This document shows, piece by piece, positions 928 to 8,769 of a stretch of 8,769 bases of DNA. The notes beneath the pieces were generated by a model. The model ran no database searches. It had not been told where the DNA came from and saw nothing but the letters and a program-made list of their open reading frames with translations. A program made the position numbers and the translations under genes. The stretch spans positions 1 through 8,769 of the forward strand of contig JAKADJ010000080.1 in NCBI GenBank assembly GCA_021820645.1, given 5' to 3'. This DNA is from Bacillota bacterium (lineage in GTDB: Bacteria; Bacillota_E; Sulfobacillia; Sulfobacillales; Sulfobacillaceae). Every line of letters begins with the position of its first letter. Position 1 is the stretch's first letter.

Positions 928-1030
928 GGAGCAAGCGGGTTTGTCGGCGATGGGGAGAAGCGTGGCCACCAGGCCCCCTGGCCGTTCGTCCCGCACTTGA
1001 AAAAATTTTCGAGATCCCTTGAAAAAACCC

Positions 1031-1059
1031 TTGACAGACCACACGGAGAATTTTATATT
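1031..1059 (+). promoter_or_regulatory. Sigma-A-type promoter of hsp20 gene
   Basis: A perfect -35 box TTGACA (1031-1036) is separated by exactly 17 bp from a -10 box TATATT (1054-1059). Transcription should start near 1066, leaving a leader of about 40 nt before the ATG at 1108. Upstream are two identical CTTGAAAAAA blocks at 996-1005 and 1018-1027. They are offset by 22 bp (about two helical turns) and could act as an UP-element-like curved A-tract. There is no CIRCE element (HrcA operator) between the preceding gene and the start codon. Confidence 0.75.
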
Positions 1060-1060
1060 A

Positions 1061-1080
1061 AGGTCAAAGAAAGTCAAAGA
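1061..1080 (+). repeat. Tandem 10-bp repeat at the hsp20 transcription start
   Basis: Two adjacent decamers, AGGTCAAAGA and AAGTCAAAGA, match at 9 of 10 positions. They cover roughly -5 to +15 relative to the predicted start. One helical turn apart, they would present the same face to a dimeric regulator, so they may be an operator. No regulator in the window is an obvious partner. A chance A-rich repeat is also possible. Confidence 0.4.
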
Positions 1081-1107
1081 CAACAAATTCCGAGGAGGTC
1101 GATTTCG

Positions 1108-1518
1108 ATGAACATGTTGCAAGAGATGCTGTGGAACCCGGTGGCGGCGGTGGAAAGTGCCTTACCAGCCGTAAACATCCGAAAGAACCAAGAGGTTTTT
1201 GAAGTCACCGTCTCAGTTCCAGGATACGACGCGAATCGGTTAGAGATGACTTGGGAAGACAAAGTTCTCAATATCCGCGGGGCTGCGGTAACCCCCGATC
1301 GCGAAAGCGATGGATGGTCTTATCTACGCCGCGAGATTCGGACCCCGGGCTTTCACTACCGTGTCGAGCTTCCCACGGGAGCCAACGAATCGGAGATTGC
1401 GGCAGAACTTAAGGACGGGTTGCTGACGATTCGGGTACCGATGACGCCAAAGCGGACCATTCCGATTCAAATCGATACGCACCAAGTCTCCATCACCGAT
1501 GCGGCTCACTCCTCGTAA
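1108..1518 (+). CDS. Small heat-shock protein, Hsp20/alpha-crystallin family
   Basis: This is a 136-residue ATP-independent holdase chaperone that would bind unfolding proteins in the cytoplasm and hand them to ATP-dependent chaperones. The ATG at 1108 is chosen because GAGGAGG (1092-1098) lies 9 nt upstream. The frame is open back to 997, but that part overlaps the promoter. A short N-terminal arm (about residues 1-18) is followed by an alpha-crystallin domain (about 19-112). The domain has the strand 'FEVTVSVPGYD', a 'LNIRG' strand and the closing signature 'A-x-L-KDGLLTIRVP'. The C-terminal tail carries the IXI-type motif in 'RTIPIQI', which normally docks into the groove of a neighbouring subunit. 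The length is usual for bacterial Hsp20. The gene looks monocistronic, lying between its own promoter (1031-1059) and the terminator at 1537-1566. Confidence 0.92.
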   Translation: MNMLQEMLWNPVAAVESALPAVNIRKNQEVFEVTVSVPGYDANRLEMTWEDKVLNIRGAAVTPDRESDGWSYLRREIRTPGFHYRVELPTGANESEIAAELKDGLLTIRVPMTPKRTIPIQIDTHQVSITDAAHSS

Positions 1519-1536
1519 TCAGACGCTCCTAATGGG

Positions 1537-1566
1537 AAAGGGTCCTCCTTGGTGAGGACCCTTTTT
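1537..1566 (+). terminator. Intrinsic terminator after hsp20
   Basis: A perfect inverted repeat pairs AAAGGGTCCTC (1537-1547) with GAGGACCCTTT (1554-1564) around a 6-nt loop. A T-run follows on the plus strand (1562-1566). It lies 18 bp after the hsp20 stop. On the minus strand it sits just beyond the stop of the convergent gene ending at 1574, with a short T-run, so it may serve both genes. Confidence 0.92.
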
Positions 1567-1573
1567 ATGCGAA

Positions 1574-1927
1574 TTATGGAGCCCGTGGTGGCTTGTTCTG
1601 GTTAGCTGCAATGAGTAGGACCAGGGCGGCCGTCATAAAGAAACTTCCGGGACCAGCCCAAACTGTGAACCATCCCGGCACTCCAATAAAGCTGGCACCA
1701 AACAACATGACCATTGCAATTTGGGGCTGCACCCATAGTACAACTAGGGCAAGCCCACCCACCAGCGTTGCACCCCACGTGAAAAGGGTGGGGGTCAGGT
1801 GCCAGAGAGTCAAGGCTTGATGCGTGCCGGTTTGCCAGAGAAAAGTTACGAGTCCTAAGCCCGCCATGGTCAGGACAAAGCTGATTGGTTTCATGAGGAA
1901 GAGTGTGCCCGTTTTTGCGGAAAACAT
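1574..1927 (-). CDS. Small hypothetical membrane protein
   Basis: The encoded protein has up to 117 residues and about four hydrophobic helices. It is rich in Leu, Val, Gly and Trp and ends in a short polar tail (NQNKPPRAP). I see no family motif. The start is uncertain. ATG at 1927 gives the full length, and ATG at 1894 (MKPISFV) gives 106 residues beginning right at the first helix; neither has a convincing ribosome binding site. The gene is divergent from ctaB and convergent with hsp20. The hydrophobic periodicity makes a real gene more likely than a chance frame. Overlapping antisense and shifted frames here show no such pattern. Its role is unknown; next to ctaB a link to the respiratory membrane is possible but unproven. 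Confidence 0.6.
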   Translation of the reverse strand: MFSAKTGTLFLMKPISFVLTMAGLGLVTFLWQTGTHQALTLWHLTPTLFTWGATLVGGLALVVLWVQPQIAMVMLFGASFIGVPGWFTVWAGPGSFFMTAALVLLIAANQNKPPRAP

Positions 1928-2051
1928 GTGTAATGCTGTCGAGATCTGGAAAGGAAGGGCTCTTCGAATGAGGCCCGTCGCATGATTTGGGGGAGAGTGG
2001 ACAGACTGGGAATGCCGACCCTGTCACGACCACCATAGTAATTATTAGGCA

Positions 2052-2079
2052 TTGAAAAGCCCCGAGATTGCAGTAAAGT
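2052..2079 (+). promoter_or_regulatory. Candidate ctaB operon promoter
   Basis: TTGAAA (2052-2057) is separated by 16 bp from TAAAGT (2074-2079). This would give a transcript start near 2086 and a leader of about 50 nt before the ctaB ATG at 2136. The boxes match consensus at 5/6 and 4/6 positions. The position is sensible in the divergent intergenic region, but the match is only moderate. Confidence 0.4.
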
Positions 2080-2135
2080 GAGTAGTGGAACAAGATCGCG
2101 TGTCAAATTGGCGCGAAGCATTGGAGGAACCAGGT

Positions 2136-3035
2136 ATGTACACGCAAGTGGCCACGGTGCCGCAAAGTTGGCGTCGGACGCTGGCCGACTACGTGGTGCT
2201 GACAAAGCCACGTATTATTGTGCTATTGGTGATCACGGCATACTGTGCGATGGTGGTGGCGGGCGGCAAGGTGCCGCATGTAGGATTGACGCTGGTCACA
2301 ATTATCGGACTCGCCATGTCGACCGGAGGGGCGCATGCCATCAACATGTGGTACGACCGGGATATCGACCAACTAATGGAGCGAACCAAACGGCGGCCCG
2401 TAGCGGCCGGCCGGATGGATCCGGTGAATGCCTTGGTATTTGGCATTGTGCTCGAACTGGTGTCGTTTATTGGACTCGGATTGTTAGCCAATTGGATGGC
2501 GGCAGCCGCCTCCCTGGCTGGATTTCTTTTTTATGTGTTCGTTTATACGATATGGTTGAAGCGCCGTACCCCTCAAAACATTGTCATCGGTGGAGCTGCC
2601 GGGGCGTTCCCGCCATTAGTCGGTTGGGCTGCCGTGACCGGACAAGTGGGCGTCGCAGCATGGCTAATGTTTTTAATTGTGTTCTTGTGGACCCCACCAC
2701 ATTTTTGGTCTTTAGCTCTCTATAAGCAAGACGATTATAAACGGGCCGGGATTCCGATGATGCCGGTCGTACGCGGCGAGCGCACCACCAAAATCCAGAG
2801 TCTCTTGTACAGCGTGCTGTTATTGGTGGCTTCGCTGTTCCTGTATATGACCCATGTCGTTAACGTGGTGTACCTGGTTGCCGCGATTGTCTTGGGGGTG
2901 ACCTTCATCGGGTATAATGTCTATTGCTGGCGGGAACGGGCACCCGAGGTTACCTGGGCGAAGCGCACATTTAAATTCTCTCTTATCTACATGATGCTGA
3001 TATTTGTGGCCATGGTGGTTGCCGTACCTCACTAA
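2136..3035 (+). CDS. ctaB: Protohaem IX farnesyltransferase (haem O synthase)
   Basis: CtaB is an integral membrane prenyltransferase of the UbiA superfamily. It attaches a farnesyl group from farnesyl diphosphate to haem b, making haem O for haem-copper oxidases and as the precursor of haem A. ATG 2136 is chosen because GGAGG (2123-2127) lies 8 nt upstream, giving 299 residues, the usual family length. The frame also opens at GTG 2085, but that has no good ribosome binding site. The first Asp-rich motif is N70-x3-D74-x3-D78 in 'NMWYDRDIDQLMERTKRRP', which binds diphosphate through Mg2+. The second is around D199-D200 in 'YKQDDYKRAGIPMMPVVRG'. About nine hydrophobic helices are visible. The MFS gene follows after 26 bp and is probably in the same operon. 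No oxidase subunit genes lie within the window. Confidence 0.95.
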   Translation: MYTQVATVPQSWRRTLADYVVLTKPRIIVLLVITAYCAMVVAGGKVPHVGLTLVTIIGLAMSTGGAHAINMWYDRDIDQLMERTKRRPVAAGRMDPVNALVFGIVLELVSFIGLGLLANWMAAAASLAGFLFYVFVYTIWLKRRTPQNIVIGGAAGAFPPLVGWAAVTGQVGVAAWLMFLIVFLWTPPHFWSLALYKQDDYKRAGIPMMPVVRGERTTKIQSLLYSVLLLVASLFLYMTHVVNVVYLVAAIVLGVTFIGYNVYCWRERAPEVTWAKRTFKFSLIYMMLIFVAMVVAVPH

Positions 3036-3061
3036 GACCTATAGGAAGGAAGAAAGCGACT

Positions 3062-4387
3062 GTGAAGCCTAACTATCGGATTCTTGGGGTATATTTTGTC
3101 GGGGTGTTCATTGGGGCCCTGGACACGAATGTGCTAGGACCGGTGTTTCCGCTAATTACCAAAAGTTTTCATATTGTGTTTGGATGGACGGCATGGACCA
3201 TCACGGCGTACACCGTGGCCTATATTGCCTCCACAATTTTGGCAGGTGCCGCCGGGGACCGCTTTGGTCATCGGAAAATTTTTACCTGGGGAATTGTCGC
3301 CTTTGGCTTGGCCTCGCTGTTAGCGGCCCTGAGCCAAAACTTTGCCATGTTTATCGTAGCTCGGATTGTCCAAGGAGCGGGTGCCGGTGCGGTATATCCC
3401 AACGCCCAGGCCGAGGGCCTTAAACTATTTCCGGCACACCGCCGGGGAATGGCACTCGGCCTATTCGGTGCCATTTTTGGGGTGGCGAGTATCTTGGGTC
3501 CCACTGCTGGTGGTGCTTTAGGACAGTATTTTGGCTGGCCCGCAGTGTTTGTCATCAATATTCCTATCGCCATCGTGGTGTTAGGCTTAGTGCGCCGGGT
3601 TCCACGCTCCGAAACCGGTTCGCGTGCGGTGCCGGATATCTCCGGTGGGCTTGGGTTTGCAGCCTTTTTAGCCAGCGTCCTTCTGTTTATCACGGTGAAT
3701 TCAAGCGTACGATGGCTATTTTTGGCCATCGCGGCACTCTGCTTCTTGCTCTTTTGGATCCGGCAGCGCACCGCCAGAATTCCCTTTTTGGATTCTAAGC
3801 CGTTAAGCAATACGGCGGGGATTGCCGTGATGATTGGAGCCGCCCTGATTGGTCTGGACATGTCGGCGGCCATCTTCGTGCCCACGTTGACCCAAGACTC
3901 CCTACATTTTAGTGTCCTAGTGTCCGGCGTAGCACTACTTCCGGCCGCCTTTACCGGCGCCGTGTTCTCCGGGGCTGGCGGCGTCATGGTGGACCGAATT
4001 GGCCCACGTAAGGTTTTAGTCGCGGGACTTTTGGCCGCCGCGCTTGGCGGCTTGTTACTGGCTTGGCCGCATCTGGTGTTGTGGCGCTTTATTGTAGCCA
4101 TGGTCGCACTGGGCATTGGAACGGCCTTCACGATGGGAGCTCCTTTGAATCGGATGGCCTTGGCCCTATACCGCGAAGATCAGGCGGGGGAAGCGCTCTC
4201 GTTAATGGCCGTATTTAGGGGCGTGGGGCTCGCGGCCGGTCCGATTATTTTAACCGCCGCGGAGGTCTGGCATGGATTTAGCGGCATGTTTGGCAGTGTC
4301 TTTATCGCTTCCCTGATTGGGCTGGTCGCCTTCTTGTTTGTCCCGGATGTAAAAGTGGTCAAGCCGAGTCAGGTGGTGGAAACCTAG
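3062..4387 (+). CDS. MFS transporter, DHA2-type (14 TM) drug/H+ antiporter
   Basis: This 441-residue permease starts at GTG 3062, with the purine-rich site AGGAAGGAAG about 8-10 nt upstream. I count about 14 hydrophobic helices: six, then two linker helices near residues 195-235, then six. That is the DHA2 arrangement. TM1 carries 'GALDTNVLGPVFPLI', the DHA2 'LD.tivn.alP.i' pattern. The TM2-3 loop has the motif A form 'GAAGDRFGHRK'. TM5 has antiporter motif C as 'ILGPTAGGALG'. A second degenerate motif A, 'GVMVDRIGPRK', lies in the second half. These features imply proton-coupled export. The substrate cannot be read from sequence. It lies 26 bp after ctaB and 22 bp before the peptidase start, so it is probably translated from the same transcript. 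Confidence 0.9.
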   Translation: MKPNYRILGVYFVGVFIGALDTNVLGPVFPLITKSFHIVFGWTAWTITAYTVAYIASTILAGAAGDRFGHRKIFTWGIVAFGLASLLAALSQNFAMFIVARIVQGAGAGAVYPNAQAEGLKLFPAHRRGMALGLFGAIFGVASILGPTAGGALGQYFGWPAVFVINIPIAIVVLGLVRRVPRSETGSRAVPDISGGLGFAAFLASVLLFITVNSSVRWLFLAIAALCFLLFWIRQRTARIPFLDSKPLSNTAGIAVMIGAALIGLDMSAAIFVPTLTQDSLHFSVLVSGVALLPAAFTGAVFSGAGGVMVDRIGPRKVLVAGLLAAALGGLLLAWPHLVLWRFIVAMVALGIGTAFTMGAPLNRMALALYREDQAGEALSLMAVFRGVGLAAGPIILTAAEVWHGFSGMFGSVFIASLIGLVAFLFVPDVKVVKPSQVVET

Positions 4388-4409
4388 CTAGTGTAAAGGA
4401 ATGGTGCCC

Positions 4410-4743
4410 ATGGGCTCCAAGCGACTCCGCGAGTACGGCATTGAGATAGGGACTTTGCCCACGGGACCCACCAACCATTTGTGTGACGTGCCGGGGGTAT
4501 TGGTGGGTCATGTTACCTTGGATCGGGATCACCGATACGGCAATGAGGTCTGTACCGGAGTCACTGCCATTTTGCCGCATAAAGGGAATTGGTTTAGGGA
4601 CCCGGTTCCCGCTGCGAGCCACGTCATTAACGGGTATGGCAAGACCACGGGAACCATTCAGGTTAACGAACTCGGACTTTTGGGATCCCCCATTATGCTC
4701 ACCAACACCTTTGGGGTGCCCGCCGTGACAGAAGGGGTCTTAC
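4410..4743 (+). pseudogene. DmpA/P1-family aminopeptidase, 5' part (split by IS)
   Basis: This is the N-terminal third of an L-aminopeptidase/D-esterase (DmpA-BapA type, an Ntn-like fold peptidase that self-cleaves). ATG 4410 is preferred because AAAGGA (4395-4400) lies 9 nt upstream; the ATG at 4401 directly abuts that site. Family features are 'TGPTNHLCDVPGVLVGHVTL', 'VCTGVTAILPH', 'INGYGKTTGTIQVNELG' and 'LTNTFGVPAVTEGVL'. Homology stops at 4743, where the mobile element begins. The frame then runs 14 codons into the element's left end and stops at TAA 4785-4787. The rest of the gene is at 6894-7630. Joining 4743 to 6894 gives Val-Leu-Arg-Tyr-Met in frame and a 356-residue product, a normal length for the family. 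Confidence 0.9.
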
Positions 4744-4781
4744 CGAAACCGGGCGTAAAGCCCCTGTCTTCAGACATGGGG
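4740..4781 (+). other. IS left end: TTAC target, AAAG guide and hairpin
   Basis: The cleavage site TTAC (4740-4743, host sequence) is followed 13 nt later by AAAG (4757-4760). AAAG abuts an imperfect hairpin: CCCCTGTC (4761-4768), loop TTCA, then GACA-T-GGGG (4773-4781) with an unpaired T at 4777. In H. pylori IS608, as I recall, the left cleavage tetranucleotide is TTAC and the guide AAAG at the hairpin foot, so the match is exact. TnpA should recognise this hairpin as single-stranded DNA. If tnpB were active, TTAC would also be its target-adjacent motif. Confidence 0.8.
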
Positions 4782-4859
4782 ATATAAGCCCGTTGGCCCG
4801 ATAGGGACAAAAGTTTTTAAAGGTGTCGTGTTAGACCACACAATGCTGATAATTAATTT

Positions 4860-5252
4860 ATGGGCGACAAATCCAATCACAACGTCGTGTATTCCTGCAA
4901 ATATCACGTGGTCTGGTGCCCGAAGTATCGGCGGCGGGTTTTGGTTGAGGGCGTGGATGAACGGCTGAAGGAGATCATTTATCAGGTGGCCGAAGAACGC
5001 ACCGTCGAGGTCATCGAGATGGAAGTCATGCCGGATCATGTCCATCTGTTGGTAGAGGTCGATCCCCAGTATGGTATTCATAAGTTCGTCAAACAGGTCA
5101 AGGGACGGTCATCACGCTTATTGCGCCAAGAGTTTCCTCGACTCAAGAGCCGGTTGCCGAGTTTGTGGACAAACTCGTATTTTGTGTCGACCGTAGGAGG
5201 TGCCCCGCTTGCCGTTATCAAACAGTACATCGAAAACCAAAAATCGGTCTAA
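4860..5252 (+). CDS. tnpA: IS200/IS605 Y1 transposase TnpA
   Basis: This 130-residue HUH single-strand transposase has all catalytic residues in place. The HUH motif is H60-V-H62 in 'MPDHVHLLVEV', and the nucleophilic tyrosine is Y123 in 'IKQYIENQ', with a conserved Gln four residues later. The N-terminus 'HNVVYSCKYHVVWCPKYRRRVL' is typical of the family, and the length is normal. As known for the family, a dimer cuts the top-strand ends through a 5'-phosphotyrosine link, excises a single-stranded circle and reseals the donor without a scar. The ATG at 4860 has no obvious ribosome binding site, so translation may be weak, as is usual for such elements. The 3' end overlaps the start of tnpB by about 44 bp in another frame. 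Confidence 0.95.
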   Translation: MGDKSNHNVVYSCKYHVVWCPKYRRRVLVEGVDERLKEIIYQVAEERTVEVIEMEVMPDHVHLLVEVDPQYGIHKFVKQVKGRSSRLLRQEFPRLKSRLPSLWTNSYFVSTVGGAPLAVIKQYIENQKSV

Positions 5253-6792
5253 GCCCGGTCGAAAAACCACGCCATCGTTTGTCTGCGAAGTGCCCTTGCG
5301 CGTGACACGCTCACAAGAGAAGACCTTGCAGACACGTTTTGAGGTGGCACGGCAGCTGTACAATGCCTTGCTGGGCGAAGCCCTTAGACGTATGCATCTC
5401 TAACAGCAGTCTCAAGCCTACGACATCGCTCGTAAAATTCCGCAAAGCCGGGGAAAGGAACGGGCAGCGGCGTTTGCCGCTGCGCGTATTGCGGTAGGCT
5501 TCACCGAATATGCGTTGTCGCGGTATGCGACCACGATCCACCAATCATGGATTGGCGACCATGTGGACGCCGTCATTGGACAAACCCTCGTGCACCGTGC
5601 GTTTGATGCGGTGAATAAAATTGTCTTAGGTCGAGCCAAGAAAGTTTGCTTTAAGGGGACACGGGGTCTGCATCAGATTGGTAGCCTCGAAGGCAAGTCC
5701 AATCAAGCCGGACTGCGCTGGCGCGAGAACGCCTTGCATTGGCGCGGTCTCACATTGCTCATGGCCAAAAACGCCAATCGTGATCCCGTCATTGCTTATG
5801 GCCTCGCACAACGAATCAAGTATGTGCGGCTGGTACGGCGGACTATTCGTGGACACCTACGGTTCTTTGCTCAACTGGTCTGTGAAGGATTCCCGATGCG
5901 ACAACTTGACCCGAAAACGGGACAATTTAAACATCCTATCGGATCTGAGATCCTGGGCCTGGATATCGGCCCGTCAACCATTGCCATCGTCGGCGGGAGC
6001 CAAGCATACCTCAAGCAGTTTGCTGAGGAGATCCTGCGGGATCATCGCACGATTCGCCGTTTGCAACGGCATCTCGCCCGGCAGCGCCGGGCGAATAATC
6101 CCGATTGCTATGACACCCAGGGCCGGGCCATCCCCGGTAAACATCCCACGCACCAAAGTCGGCGGCAGAAAGCGACGCAAGCGCTGCTCAAGGAGCTCTT
6201 TCGATGCGAAGCGGCGCATCGCAAGGCGTTGCATGGGCGTCTCGCCAATCAGATTCTCGGCATCGGGGTCCTCATTAAAACCGAAAAATTGAGCTACAAC
6301 GCGTTTCAAAAGCGATTTGGCCGATCTATTAGTGTTCGGGCTCCCAAGCTGTTTTTATCGATCTTAACCCGCAAGGCTGCAAGCGCTGGCGGGGAGGTCC
6401 TCGAATTCAGCACCCGCACCACGGCCTTATCCCAAGTCTCTTTATGCGGGAAGAAACACAAAAAGCGGCTTTCTGAGCGGGTCCACGCCTGTGAGTGTGG
6501 CGTGACCACGCAAAGGGACCTCTTTAGTGCCTATCTGGCCCGCTTTGTGGAAGATGATGCCCTCCAAGTTGCCAAGGCTCGTGAGTCTTGGCCAGGTGCG
6601 GAACCGCTCCTGCGGACGGCTTGGCAACAGGCAGTCAAAAACCAACCTGCAAGTCGAGGGACTCGTCCCTCGTCCTTGGGCCGCTATCCCAGCGGCCCGA
6701 GTCAGAGCGGGTCGTCCGAGAAAGTTTGCGCCACGGTCGGTATCGTGGGTAATCCAGCGACTAAGAGCTTGGATGATGTAGCCACCTCGTGA
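5209..6792 (+). pseudogene. tnpB: TnpB RNA-guided nuclease gene with internal stop
   Basis: TnpB is the RuvC-type nuclease related to the Cas12 ancestor, guided by an RNA made from the element's right end. The frame is 528 codons including the terminator. TTG 5209 is chosen because TAGGAGG (5194-5200) sits 8 nt upstream; GTG 5200 overlaps that site. TAA at 5401-5403 (codon 65) interrupts the frame, which continues without shift after it. The RuvC residues appear intact: D252 in 'LGLDIGPSTIAIVG', E359 in 'IKTEKLSYNAFQ' and D437 in 'TTQRDLFSAYLA'. The zinc knuckle seems damaged. The second pair is C428-x-C430, but the first reads S411-x-C413, where Cys-x-Cys is expected. A downstream restart (TTG 5515) would lack the N-terminal nucleic-acid-binding region. 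The gene is probably inactive unless the stop is read through. Confidence 0.88.
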
Positions 6793-6913
6793 CCGCAGGG
6801 AATCCCTTCGGGAACAGAGTGTTGTGAGAGCCAGGAAGAGGTTGCCGGAATTCGCGAATAGAACCCCCCGGATTTATCCGTGGCGAGGTTCAGGTTACAT
6901 GATTGAGGTCGAT
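6793..6913 (+). ncRNA. Probable TnpB guide RNA (reRNA/omega RNA)
   Basis: In this family the guide RNA scaffold comes from the 3' end of tnpB and the element's right end, and the guide is the first 16-20 nt of flanking DNA. Here the scaffold would cover the tnpB stop region to 6893. It includes the small hairpin TCCC-TTC-GGGA (6803-6813) and the right-end hairpin near 6867-6883. The guide would start at 6894 with GTTACATGATTGAGG. The 5' boundary is not visible and may lie inside tnpB; the coordinates are approximate. The call rests on family position, not on covariation. Confidence 0.45.
6861..6893 (+). other. IS right end: GAAC guide, hairpin and TCAG cleavage site
   Basis: GAAC (6861-6864) precedes an imperfect hairpin: CC-CGGA (6867-6872) pairing with TCCG-T-GG (6877-6883), with an unpaired T at 6881 like the one in the left hairpin. 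Ten nucleotides follow to the cut after TCAG (6890-6893). As I recall, IS608 uses TCAA with guide GAAT. Here the last base of both tetranucleotides has changed together (A/T to G/C), as expected if they pair. Confidence 0.7.
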
Positions 6914-7630
6914 CCCGAGATCGGAGACGGTCGCTCGGTAAATGTGGTCGTGGGCGAGTGCAACGATAGTTACCTAAACGACATGAGGGGACTCCACGTG
7001 CGGCCAGAACATGCATCCCAAGCCATTAAGGCCGCGTTACAGAGTAATTCCCGGCACGAAGGGGCGCTTGGTGCCGGTACCGGCATGACGTGTTTTGGCT
7101 GGAAGGGCGGGGTTGGGTCGGCCTCTCGGACCCTTGAGGGGAAAAGCGGCGCCCATACGATTGGCACCCTGGTGGTCAGCAACTTTGGGTCGGCCCAGGA
7201 TCTTCAGATCAACGGAATCCGCGTCGGTGATGCATTGATGCCACCCACAAGGAGTCCTGATACATCCATAAATGAACCATCCGTGGCCGATGGCTCCATC
7301 ATGATTGTGATCGGCACCGACTTGCCGTTGACGCAGGGTGGACTCTTGCGACTAGCCAAGCGCGCGGTCGTCGGCCTGGCACGAACGGGGTCCTATGTGT
7401 CGCATGGAAGTGGGGACATTGTGGTGGCATTCAGTACCGTGCGCGTCGAGTCTTTCGTGGCGGGCTTCGAAGAGGATGGATCTTTGATGTCCGAGGCGTT
7501 TCGAGCCACCATCGAGGCGGTCGAGGAATCGGTCTTAAATTCGCTCGCAATGGCGGGCACCACGATGGGAAAGCGAGGGCGTGTAGTCACCGGGTTTCCG
7601 ATGGAGCACTGGGCGCGACTGCATGCTTAG
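6894..7630 (+). pseudogene. DmpA/P1-family aminopeptidase, 3' part (split by IS)
   Basis: This fragment carries the C-terminal two thirds of the peptidase begun at 4410. Family signatures follow in order: 'VVVGECNDSYLNDMRGLHV', 'GALGAGTGMTCFGWKGGVG', 'IGTLVVSNFG', then 'VADGSIMIVIGTDLPL' and 'GSGDIVVAFST'. The Gly-Ser bond in 'ADG|SIMIV' (Ser codon 7295-7297) is the expected autoproteolysis point. It makes Ser the N-terminal nucleophile of the beta subunit. In the rejoined protein it is residue 246 (249 if counted from ATG 4401), very close to Ser250 of Ochrobactrum DmpA as I recall. All motifs are intact, which suggests a recent insertion. A GTG at 6824 inside the element keeps the frame open but is not a native start. 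The activity of a separate C-terminal fragment is doubtful. Confidence 0.9.
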
Positions 7631-7690
7631 CCGAGTGCTACATAATCCCTCAACGGCGAGGCGGGCGTTAAGCCCCGTCGTAGCGGCCAG

Positions 7691-7710
7691 GATTCACTCA
7701 GATTCACTCA
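7691..7710. repeat. Tandem 10-bp repeat at the lipoprotein stop codon
   Basis: GATTCACTCA occurs twice back to back (7691-7700 and 7701-7710). The second copy contains the TGA of the minus-strand lipoprotein gene. It lies in the 77-bp gap between the convergent peptidase and lipoprotein genes, where no clear T-run terminator is visible. It is probably a replication-slippage duplication. Confidence 0.6.
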
Positions 7711-8298
7711 GGATTTTCCCAAACCGAGTTGGCTGGCGACCGCTTCAAGTTTCGTGGCGGTTTGTACATCCTCTAATTGTTTTTCAATTTTGCCGTGGGA
7801 ATTGAGGAAGAAGAAGCTTGGGATATAGGCCGCTTTTTTAGAAAATACGCTATCACGCTTGGGATCTAAGAAAATTCGATCGGGGTTTAAGTGAAACTCC
7901 TGGGCATAGGTATCCATCGTTGTGGCCAAGAGCGATACGGCGTGTTTAGACGGAAGAGCTTTAGGGTGATCGACCCCGGCATTTGAATTATTTAATGGAC
8001 CCGGCACGCCAATTCCCCCGTACGGTGAGATGACGACGAGCGAGACCCGAATGTGATGCAGGGTCGCCCAGCGAATCAAGGCGGGTTCTTGCCACCTGGC
8101 TTCCCAGGCACAAAACTTACACCAAGAGGCCATGGCAATGACGATGCCCCCGGACGGAGCACCAAACGCGGGACTGACCCAATGCTGTGACGCTACGGAA
8201 TAGACCGGGGGAGTCGATGGTGCGGCAGATTGTCCGCACCCCGCAAGTAGTGTGCCTCCGGTCAAAGCGATGATGGCAAATCGAGTCACAGCACGCAC
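7708..8298 (-). CDS. Thioredoxin-fold lipoprotein (TlpA/ResA-like)
   Basis: This 196-residue exported protein starts at GTG 8298; GGAGG on the minus strand (8308-8312) lies 9 nt upstream. The N-terminus is a lipoprotein signal: basic residues, a hydrophobic stretch, then the lipobox LLAGC with C21 as the lipidation site. A Pro/Ser/Ala-rich linker follows. The thioredoxin-like domain starts near residue 50 and has a C60-K-F-C63 redox motif after 'AMASW'. A probable cis-proline (P160 in 'AAYIPSFFFL') precedes 'NSHGKIEKQ'. It would face the outside of the membrane and act in thiol-disulphide exchange, for example in cytochrome c or oxidase maturation. Near ctaB this role is attractive but inferred. 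Between the two halves of the fold lies an insert of about 60 residues rich in Gly, Pro and Asn. It shares its orientation with the membrane protein 91 bp upstream. Confidence 0.82.
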   Translation of the reverse strand: MRAVTRFAIIALTGGTLLAGCGQSAAPSTPPVYSVASQHWVSPAFGAPSGGIVIAMASWCKFCAWEARWQEPALIRWATLHHIRVSLVVISPYGGIGVPGPLNNSNAGVDHPKALPSKHAVSLLATTMDTYAQEFHLNPDRIFLDPKRDSVFSKKAAYIPSFFFLNSHGKIEKQLEDVQTATKLEAVASQLGLGKS

Positions 8299-8364
8299 CA
8301 GAAAGTTCCTCCGTCCCGTTAGGTCGTGGTTTAGCGACGCCGTTTACTATGGTATACGGGGGGA

Positions 8365-8385
8365 CCCGGAGTTGCAAGATCCGGG
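8365..8385 (-). other. Intergenic hairpin between two minus-strand genes
   Basis: The inverted repeat CCCGGA (8365-8370) / TCCGGG (8380-8385) has a 9-nt loop and lies just after the stop of the upstream minus-strand gene. No T-run follows on the minus strand, so it is not a classical terminator. It may be a weak terminator or an RNA-stabilising hairpin. A weak promoter-like pair for the lipoprotein gene (TTGCAA, 17 bp, TACCAT, reading leftward from 8377) overlaps it. Confidence 0.35.
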
Positions 8386-8389
8386 TGTG

Positions 8390-8769
8390 CTACTGGGCTC
8401 CGACTTGTGACTCGAGACGTCGCCGGCTGGCAACAGGGGCCAAAATGGCTTTTCGGTCTGGGTGACATACCCAGGGTAGAGCCATCAGCAAAAGCCAAAT
8501 CGGCGGCGTATTGGGATCGGTACCGACTCCTCCCAACACACCAAAATCCATGGCCAACCACCAAATCGTAAACAACCAGATTCCTACGCTGATTTTCAGC
8601 CAGGTGGGATGCCAATCTAAAAGATAGGCGACTCCGAATCCGGCCATGATGACAATGAAGCTGACGTTGGTCCAGTTCGACATGTGTCCCAGATATAGTG
8701 CCACCTGCTGAATGACAGAAGAAATGACCGAAGGTTGCGGACTTGTCGCCAGAGCCTGCCATGGTGACA
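8390..8769 (-). CDS. C-terminal part of a multi-pass membrane protein
   Basis: The minus-strand frame is open from the right edge to TAG at 8390-8392, giving about 125 residues. The GTG at 8704 is internal, because coding-like sequence with 'ATSPQPSVISSVIQQ' continues upstream of it. Three or four hydrophobic helices are visible. A conserved-looking stretch 'DFGVLGGVGTDPNTPPIW' precedes the last helix, and the tail is basic and cytoplasmic-looking. I recall similar 'G...TDPN..P' endings in uncharacterised membrane proteins of Gram-positive bacteria, but I cannot name a family. It is followed after 91 bp by the thioredoxin lipoprotein gene in the same direction, which hints at a shared envelope function. 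Confidence 0.65.
   Translation of the reverse strand, partial: SPWQALATSPQPSVISSVIQQVALYLGHMSNWTNVSFIVIMAGFGVAYLLDWHPTWLKISVGIWLFTIWWLAMDFGVLGGVGTDPNTPPIWLLLMALPWVCHPDRKAILAPVASRRRLESQVGAQ

Follow-up and report, generated by a model that had tools for sequence, protein, structure and literature searches.

It is asked here whether a transposon lying within a peptidase gene forms a reversible ON/OFF locus or is simply an insertion that has broken the gene. The window, i.e. the whole stretch of 8,769 nucleotides that was analysed, belongs to a Sulfobacillus-like bacterium and contains two pieces of a gene for a DmpA-type peptidase of family S58, which are separated by an element of the IS200/IS605 family. 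A preliminary description of this DNA recognized a Y1 (HUH) transposon with exact ends and an intact-looking TnpA, whose excision would rebuild the gene, and proposed a reversible ON/OFF locus. The first part of that description stands, while the proposed switch is not supported. Very probably, an IS608-like element has inserted into the peptidase gene fairly recently and in the ordinary way. This gene is interrupted in the sequenced genotype; the kind of event is known and the instance is new. The features are listed in Table 1.

Table 1. Positions of the element, its ends and genes, and the two parts of the peptidase gene in the window.
Feature	Position	Strand	Remarks
IS608-like IS200/IS605 element	4744..6893	+	borders set from other copies
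TTAC target and left cleavage site	4740..4743	+	TTAC at 35/38 left ends; identical to the IS608 target (PMC5934647)
Left end	4757..4781	+	guide-like AAAG at 4757-4760 (by comparison with IS608), then hairpin at 4761-4781
Right end	6861..6893	+	guide-like GAAC at 6861-6864; hairpin to 6891; private C at 6884; cleavage site TCAG at 6890-6893
tnpA, Y1/HUH transposase	4860..5252	+	130 aa; PF01797; NF033573 over cut-off; ISHp608 TnpA 2A6M
tnpB, RNA-guided nuclease gene	5200..6792	+	start uncertain; frame interrupted by TAA (5401-5403); 3' part matches PF07282
S58 (DmpA-type) peptidase, 5' part	4401..4743	+	114 codons from ATG 4401 (start possibly ATG 4410); PF03576 positions 1-85
S58 peptidase, 3' part	6894..7630	+	contains the Gly-Ser site; PF03576 positions 87-306

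Borders of the element and the joint between the gene pieces

A near-identical locus (L001) lies on contig DAHWKJ010000082.1 of the Sulfobacillus MAG clean1335 (G001). A search of the 34 genomes from the family of G001 with window positions 4300-7700 gave matches in 29 of them, G001 included. Part of the matching places was fetched (40 stretches), together with the loci returned by other searches. The ends were compared using queries that stopped 7 bases inside each end, and the window's own locus (L016, L050) was excluded. The fetched copies provided 38 distinct left ends, and in 35 of them TTAC was located immediately 5' of the element, compared to about 2% expected by chance; in 28 of these 35, it occurred at exactly the same offset as in the window. 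The three other left ends are those of L117, which has TTGC, L121, and L048. Of the 18 distinct right ends, 16 terminate in TCAG, the exceptions being L078 (TCAT) and L039. Agreement in each of the flank columns outside the element did not exceed 48%. The element therefore spans positions 4744-6893.

Subterminal hairpins with guide tetranucleotides on their 5' sides, as characteristic of the IS200/IS605 family, are present. The left hairpin is directly preceded by AAAG, contains one unpaired T, and has a z-score of -1.6, while the z-score of the right hairpin is -3.1. The guides and cleavage sites of IS608 (ISHp608) from Helicobacter pylori are AAAG/TTAC and GAAT/TCAA (PMC5934647). The window element shares with IS608 the TTAC target, the AAAG that adjoins the left hairpin on its 5' side, and the order of tnpA and tnpB on the same strand. 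By contrast, its right end has GAAC/TCAG, where guide and cleavage site depart together from those of IS608, each at its fourth base, and we infer that GAAC and TCAG pair as guide and cleavage site. The base following the right end is also different: it is G or A at 12 of 16 sites examined here, whereas about 70% of IS608 targets have C (PMC5934647). Within the right-end stem, position 6884 is C in the window versus G in all 16 other TCAG-ended copies. The hairpin of the window copy has a calculated stability of -6.9 kcal/mol versus a mean of -8.7 kcal/mol for the 16 others, two of which are as weak or weaker.

Joining position 4743 to position 6894 yields a single open frame of 359 amino acids from ATG 4401, or 356 from ATG 4410, which reads ...TEGVLRYMIEVD... 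across the joint. Restoration of the frame alone is weak evidence, because 10 of the 28 right-hand joints tested (6885-6912) are likewise in frame and free of stops. The two gene halves match Pfam family PF03576 at adjoining positions of the profile (1-85 and 87-306 of 307). Peptidase homologues were taken from the 120 best listed of 6686; one of these, P0003, is a fragment from the same locus and was left out. Residues 107-124 are gap-free in all of the remaining 119. At the place of the joint, P0001, the closest homologue among those listed (82% identical), likewise reads VLRYM, and P0002 (71% identical) reads VLQYM. Since none of the 119 homologues has an insertion or deletion here, the element neither added nor removed residues relative to the family; the empty site is thus deduced from homologous proteins with an identity of at most 82%. 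The gap-free protein junction also suggests that no target duplication was made in the window, where the element lies 3' of a short fixed target as is typical of IS200/IS605 insertions.

At the level of sequence comparison, the exact joint is confirmed by two independent lines, namely the element ends in other copies and the gap-free homologues. The base-exact borders 4744-6893 named in the preliminary description are borne out by the TTAC and TCAG counts, and the compared copies mostly have the same ends. Its 356-codon frame with VLRYM across the joint was reproduced by translation and agrees with the homologues, none of the 119 having extra or missing residues at this place. Excision at the 4743/6894 borders would rebuild the gene exactly.

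Two other explanations of the joint were considered. According to one of them, the element was joined to wrong flanks during assembly. Elements of this kind are indeed repeated in related genomes, and the left junction is known from the window only, since L001 starts at window position 4832, inside the element. We nevertheless consider such an artefact highly improbable: the right junction is common to L001 and the window, TTAC and TCAG stand exactly at the borders, and both flanks belong to one peptidase, at adjoining profile positions. The other explanation is that IStron-like splicing removes the element from RNA, so that the gene works despite the insertion. The in-frame junction would agree with this, but scarless insertion alone already explains such a junction, and a comparison of the window with Rfam, which covers the group I introns, gave no match at E-values up to 0.5. 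The identification as an IStron was dropped for lack of a group I intron at this threshold, and we regard splicing as barely conceivable.

The interrupted peptidase gene

The 5' part of the gene reads 14 codons into the element and then reaches a stop, which gives a frame of 128 amino acids. The 3' part is devoid of the first 114 residues. We infer that the peptidase loses its function while the element is present. Assignment to family S58 follows from scores above the PF03576 cut-off in both halves, and residues 3-339 of the joined protein align with DmpA (1B65), residues 9-357 with 2DRH. Both structures have GS opposite the Gly-Ser pair of residues 248-249, so the autocleavage site, earlier described as intact, appears to be present in the joined peptidase. 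In annotation, both gene pieces should be treated as one interrupted S58 gene.

Enzymes of family S58 mature into two chains, and one could therefore imagine that the two pieces are made separately and assemble into an active enzyme. An ATG is located 5 bases past the element end in the 3' part, with GAGG upstream. However, the gene is split behind residue 114 (numbering from ATG 4401) and not at the autocleavage site, the Gly-Ser pair 248-249, and the 5' piece is terminated by 14 foreign codons. A two-piece enzyme is accordingly most doubtful.

At columns conserved in at least 90% of the homologues, the joined peptidase departs from the consensus in 7 of 123 cases, 6 of which are common to P0001. 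The departure E95G affects a residue conserved at 99% and is absent from P0001. The mean for the other homologues is 3.5 departures, and 17 of the 119 have at least 7. The number of departures, twice this mean, speaks against a recent insertion with little decay, but the decay that is the peptidase's own is slight and therefore fits a recent insertion.

Transposase and nuclease genes of the element

TnpA possesses the HxH motif and the C-terminal tyrosine that are catalytic in Y1/HUH transposases. Its scores for PF01797 and NF033573 are over the cut-off. The alignment with TnpA of ISHp608 (2A6M) covers 125 residues (E-value 4e-59) and runs through the HxH and QYIENQ stretches; assignment of catalytic residues in Y1 TnpA is given in PMC5934647. 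In agreement with the preliminary description, the open frame of 130 amino acids looks intact, and the protein may be active on these ends.

The situation with tnpB is different from that in IS608. Its frame is cut short by a premature TAA at position 5401, both in the window and in L001/L016, while a sense codon is present in all 14 other distinct copies aligned at this position, and the match to NF040570 is below the cut-off. TnpB of the window copy is, judging from the frame, probably dead. An open tnpB frame is a trait of the IS605 group but is not needed for transposition; its absence leaves the membership, based on TnpA and the ends, unaffected. Stops at other positions of tnpB were detected in L023 (one), L078 (two), and L082 (three), so a broken tnpB is not rare among the compared copies. 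The nonsense codon, the stem change at 6884, and E95G are additional to the features noted previously. TnpB could be supplied in trans.

The bin of G001, which seems to mix species, contains six matches to Y1 transposases, the present one included. The plasmid and phage collections contained only relatives of tnpA size (14 plasmid records and 1 phage record). A 144-bp stretch in another genome (L119 737-880, G032:C152) carries both ends of the element, cannot accommodate its genes, and is PATE- or MITE-like.

Alleles, possible reversion and the proposed switch

The scan of genome contigs with the joined protein revealed 15 loci. The only near-identical one was L001, where residues 116-359 adjoin the element; the other 14 were 43-56% identical. 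All other places in the 34 genomes of the family, the L001 locus apart, displayed at most 47% identity to the joined peptidase, and an exact-pattern scan of viral contigs gave no empty site. Thus, DNA of an uninterrupted conspecific allele was not found in the genome contigs, the 34 family genomes, or the viral contigs, and the alleles seen in the assemblies searched are filled only. The joined flanks of two further element sites (L113 and L116) had no match across either joint in the 34 genomes.

In G001, the left part of the window is represented solely by a second version of the neighbourhood, with 76% identity over window positions 1022-4417. The corresponding locus (L018, G001:C93) is 78% identical over 2811-4417 and 71% over 7734-8707. 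The similarity stops at window position 4417, just 3' of ATGGGATCT, which resembles the peptidase start, and restarts 104 bases further on, in what is, in the window, the next gene after the peptidase. As judged from this short match, a deletion seems to have removed the peptidase from the L018 lineage and spared the apparent start region (L018 1540-1760), which suggests an independent loss. The peptidase seems to be dispensable at this locus in the sister lineage.

Regarded as a selected device for phase variation, the locus would have the peptidase ON after excision by TnpA and OFF after re-insertion at the same TTAC. The base-exact ends, the intact frame of TnpA, and the little decay of the peptidase would agree with this proposal. 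However, members of the IS200/IS605 family as a rule have precise ends and make no target duplication (PMC5934647, PMC7290912), and scarless ends are therefore no sign of a switch by themselves. Return to the same site has been proposed to need cutting of the empty site by TnpB and repair from the sister chromosome (PMC8612924), and the role of TnpB in retention is restated in PMC11870625. Since tnpB of the window copy is stopped at 5401, this route is probably closed and no means of same-site return is probably left within the element, although TnpB acting in trans could still serve. The altered right-end stem (C at 6884), the failure to find an empty allele in the assemblies searched, and the sister-lineage locus without the peptidase also count against a switch. 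Among the listed titles of papers on IS605 in connection with phase variation or precise excision, we found none on an ON/OFF locus of this family. The reversible ON/OFF locus of the preliminary description is considered very unlikely.

ISDra2 of Deinococcus radiodurans belongs to the same family and has the same peel-and-paste mechanism, but it differs from the window element by a TTGAT target and an active TnpB (PMC8612924). A gene interrupted by ISDra2 has been shown to be restored when the element is excised (PMC2806898). As reported there for ISDra2 without tnpB, the excision frequency is approximately 2e-3 per cell and increases by a factor of about ten upon irradiation, whereas overall transposition into a reporter gene occurs at approximately 4e-10, or 2e-8 after irradiation. 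Transposition into the reporter gene is therefore more than a million times rarer than excision, which is a further point against an ON/OFF locus.

Under the preferred explanation, an ordinary insertion, a single-stranded circle would have been integrated by TnpA 3' of TTAC through pairing of guides and cleavage sites (AAAG/TTAC and GAAC/TCAG), and the peptidase would be inactive with the element in place. Rare excision driven by TnpA, for instance during replication, would restore the peptidase exactly. In the opposite direction, the element could only insert anew, with many TTAC sites available, so that the locus would be a revertible disruption rather than a programmed switch working both ways. 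An ordinary disruption of this sort might revert in one direction. That the loss of TnpB has created a self-resetting allele, in which the peptidase would turn ON stochastically and one way in part of the population, perhaps under DNA damage in the habitat, is unlikely. The locus represents a clean natural case in which a TnpA+ TnpB- element of the IS608 type interrupts a coding gene and the exact empty site can be predicted. It could be used for testing whether an element is lost faster once TnpB is gone.

The bin of G001 seems to mix two Sulfobacillus species, because contig C38 is near-identical to the window and the neighbourhood recurs on C93 with an identity of 71-78%. L001, which may come from the same sample as the window, differs from window positions 4832-8769 at 5 of 3938 bases, all within the element, where L001 1-2062 corresponds to window 4832-6893, and none in the flank; four of the differences are silent and one exchanges Arg and Trp in the tnpB frame. 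Their confinement to the element might reflect the presence of more than a single copy, or a mixed consensus.
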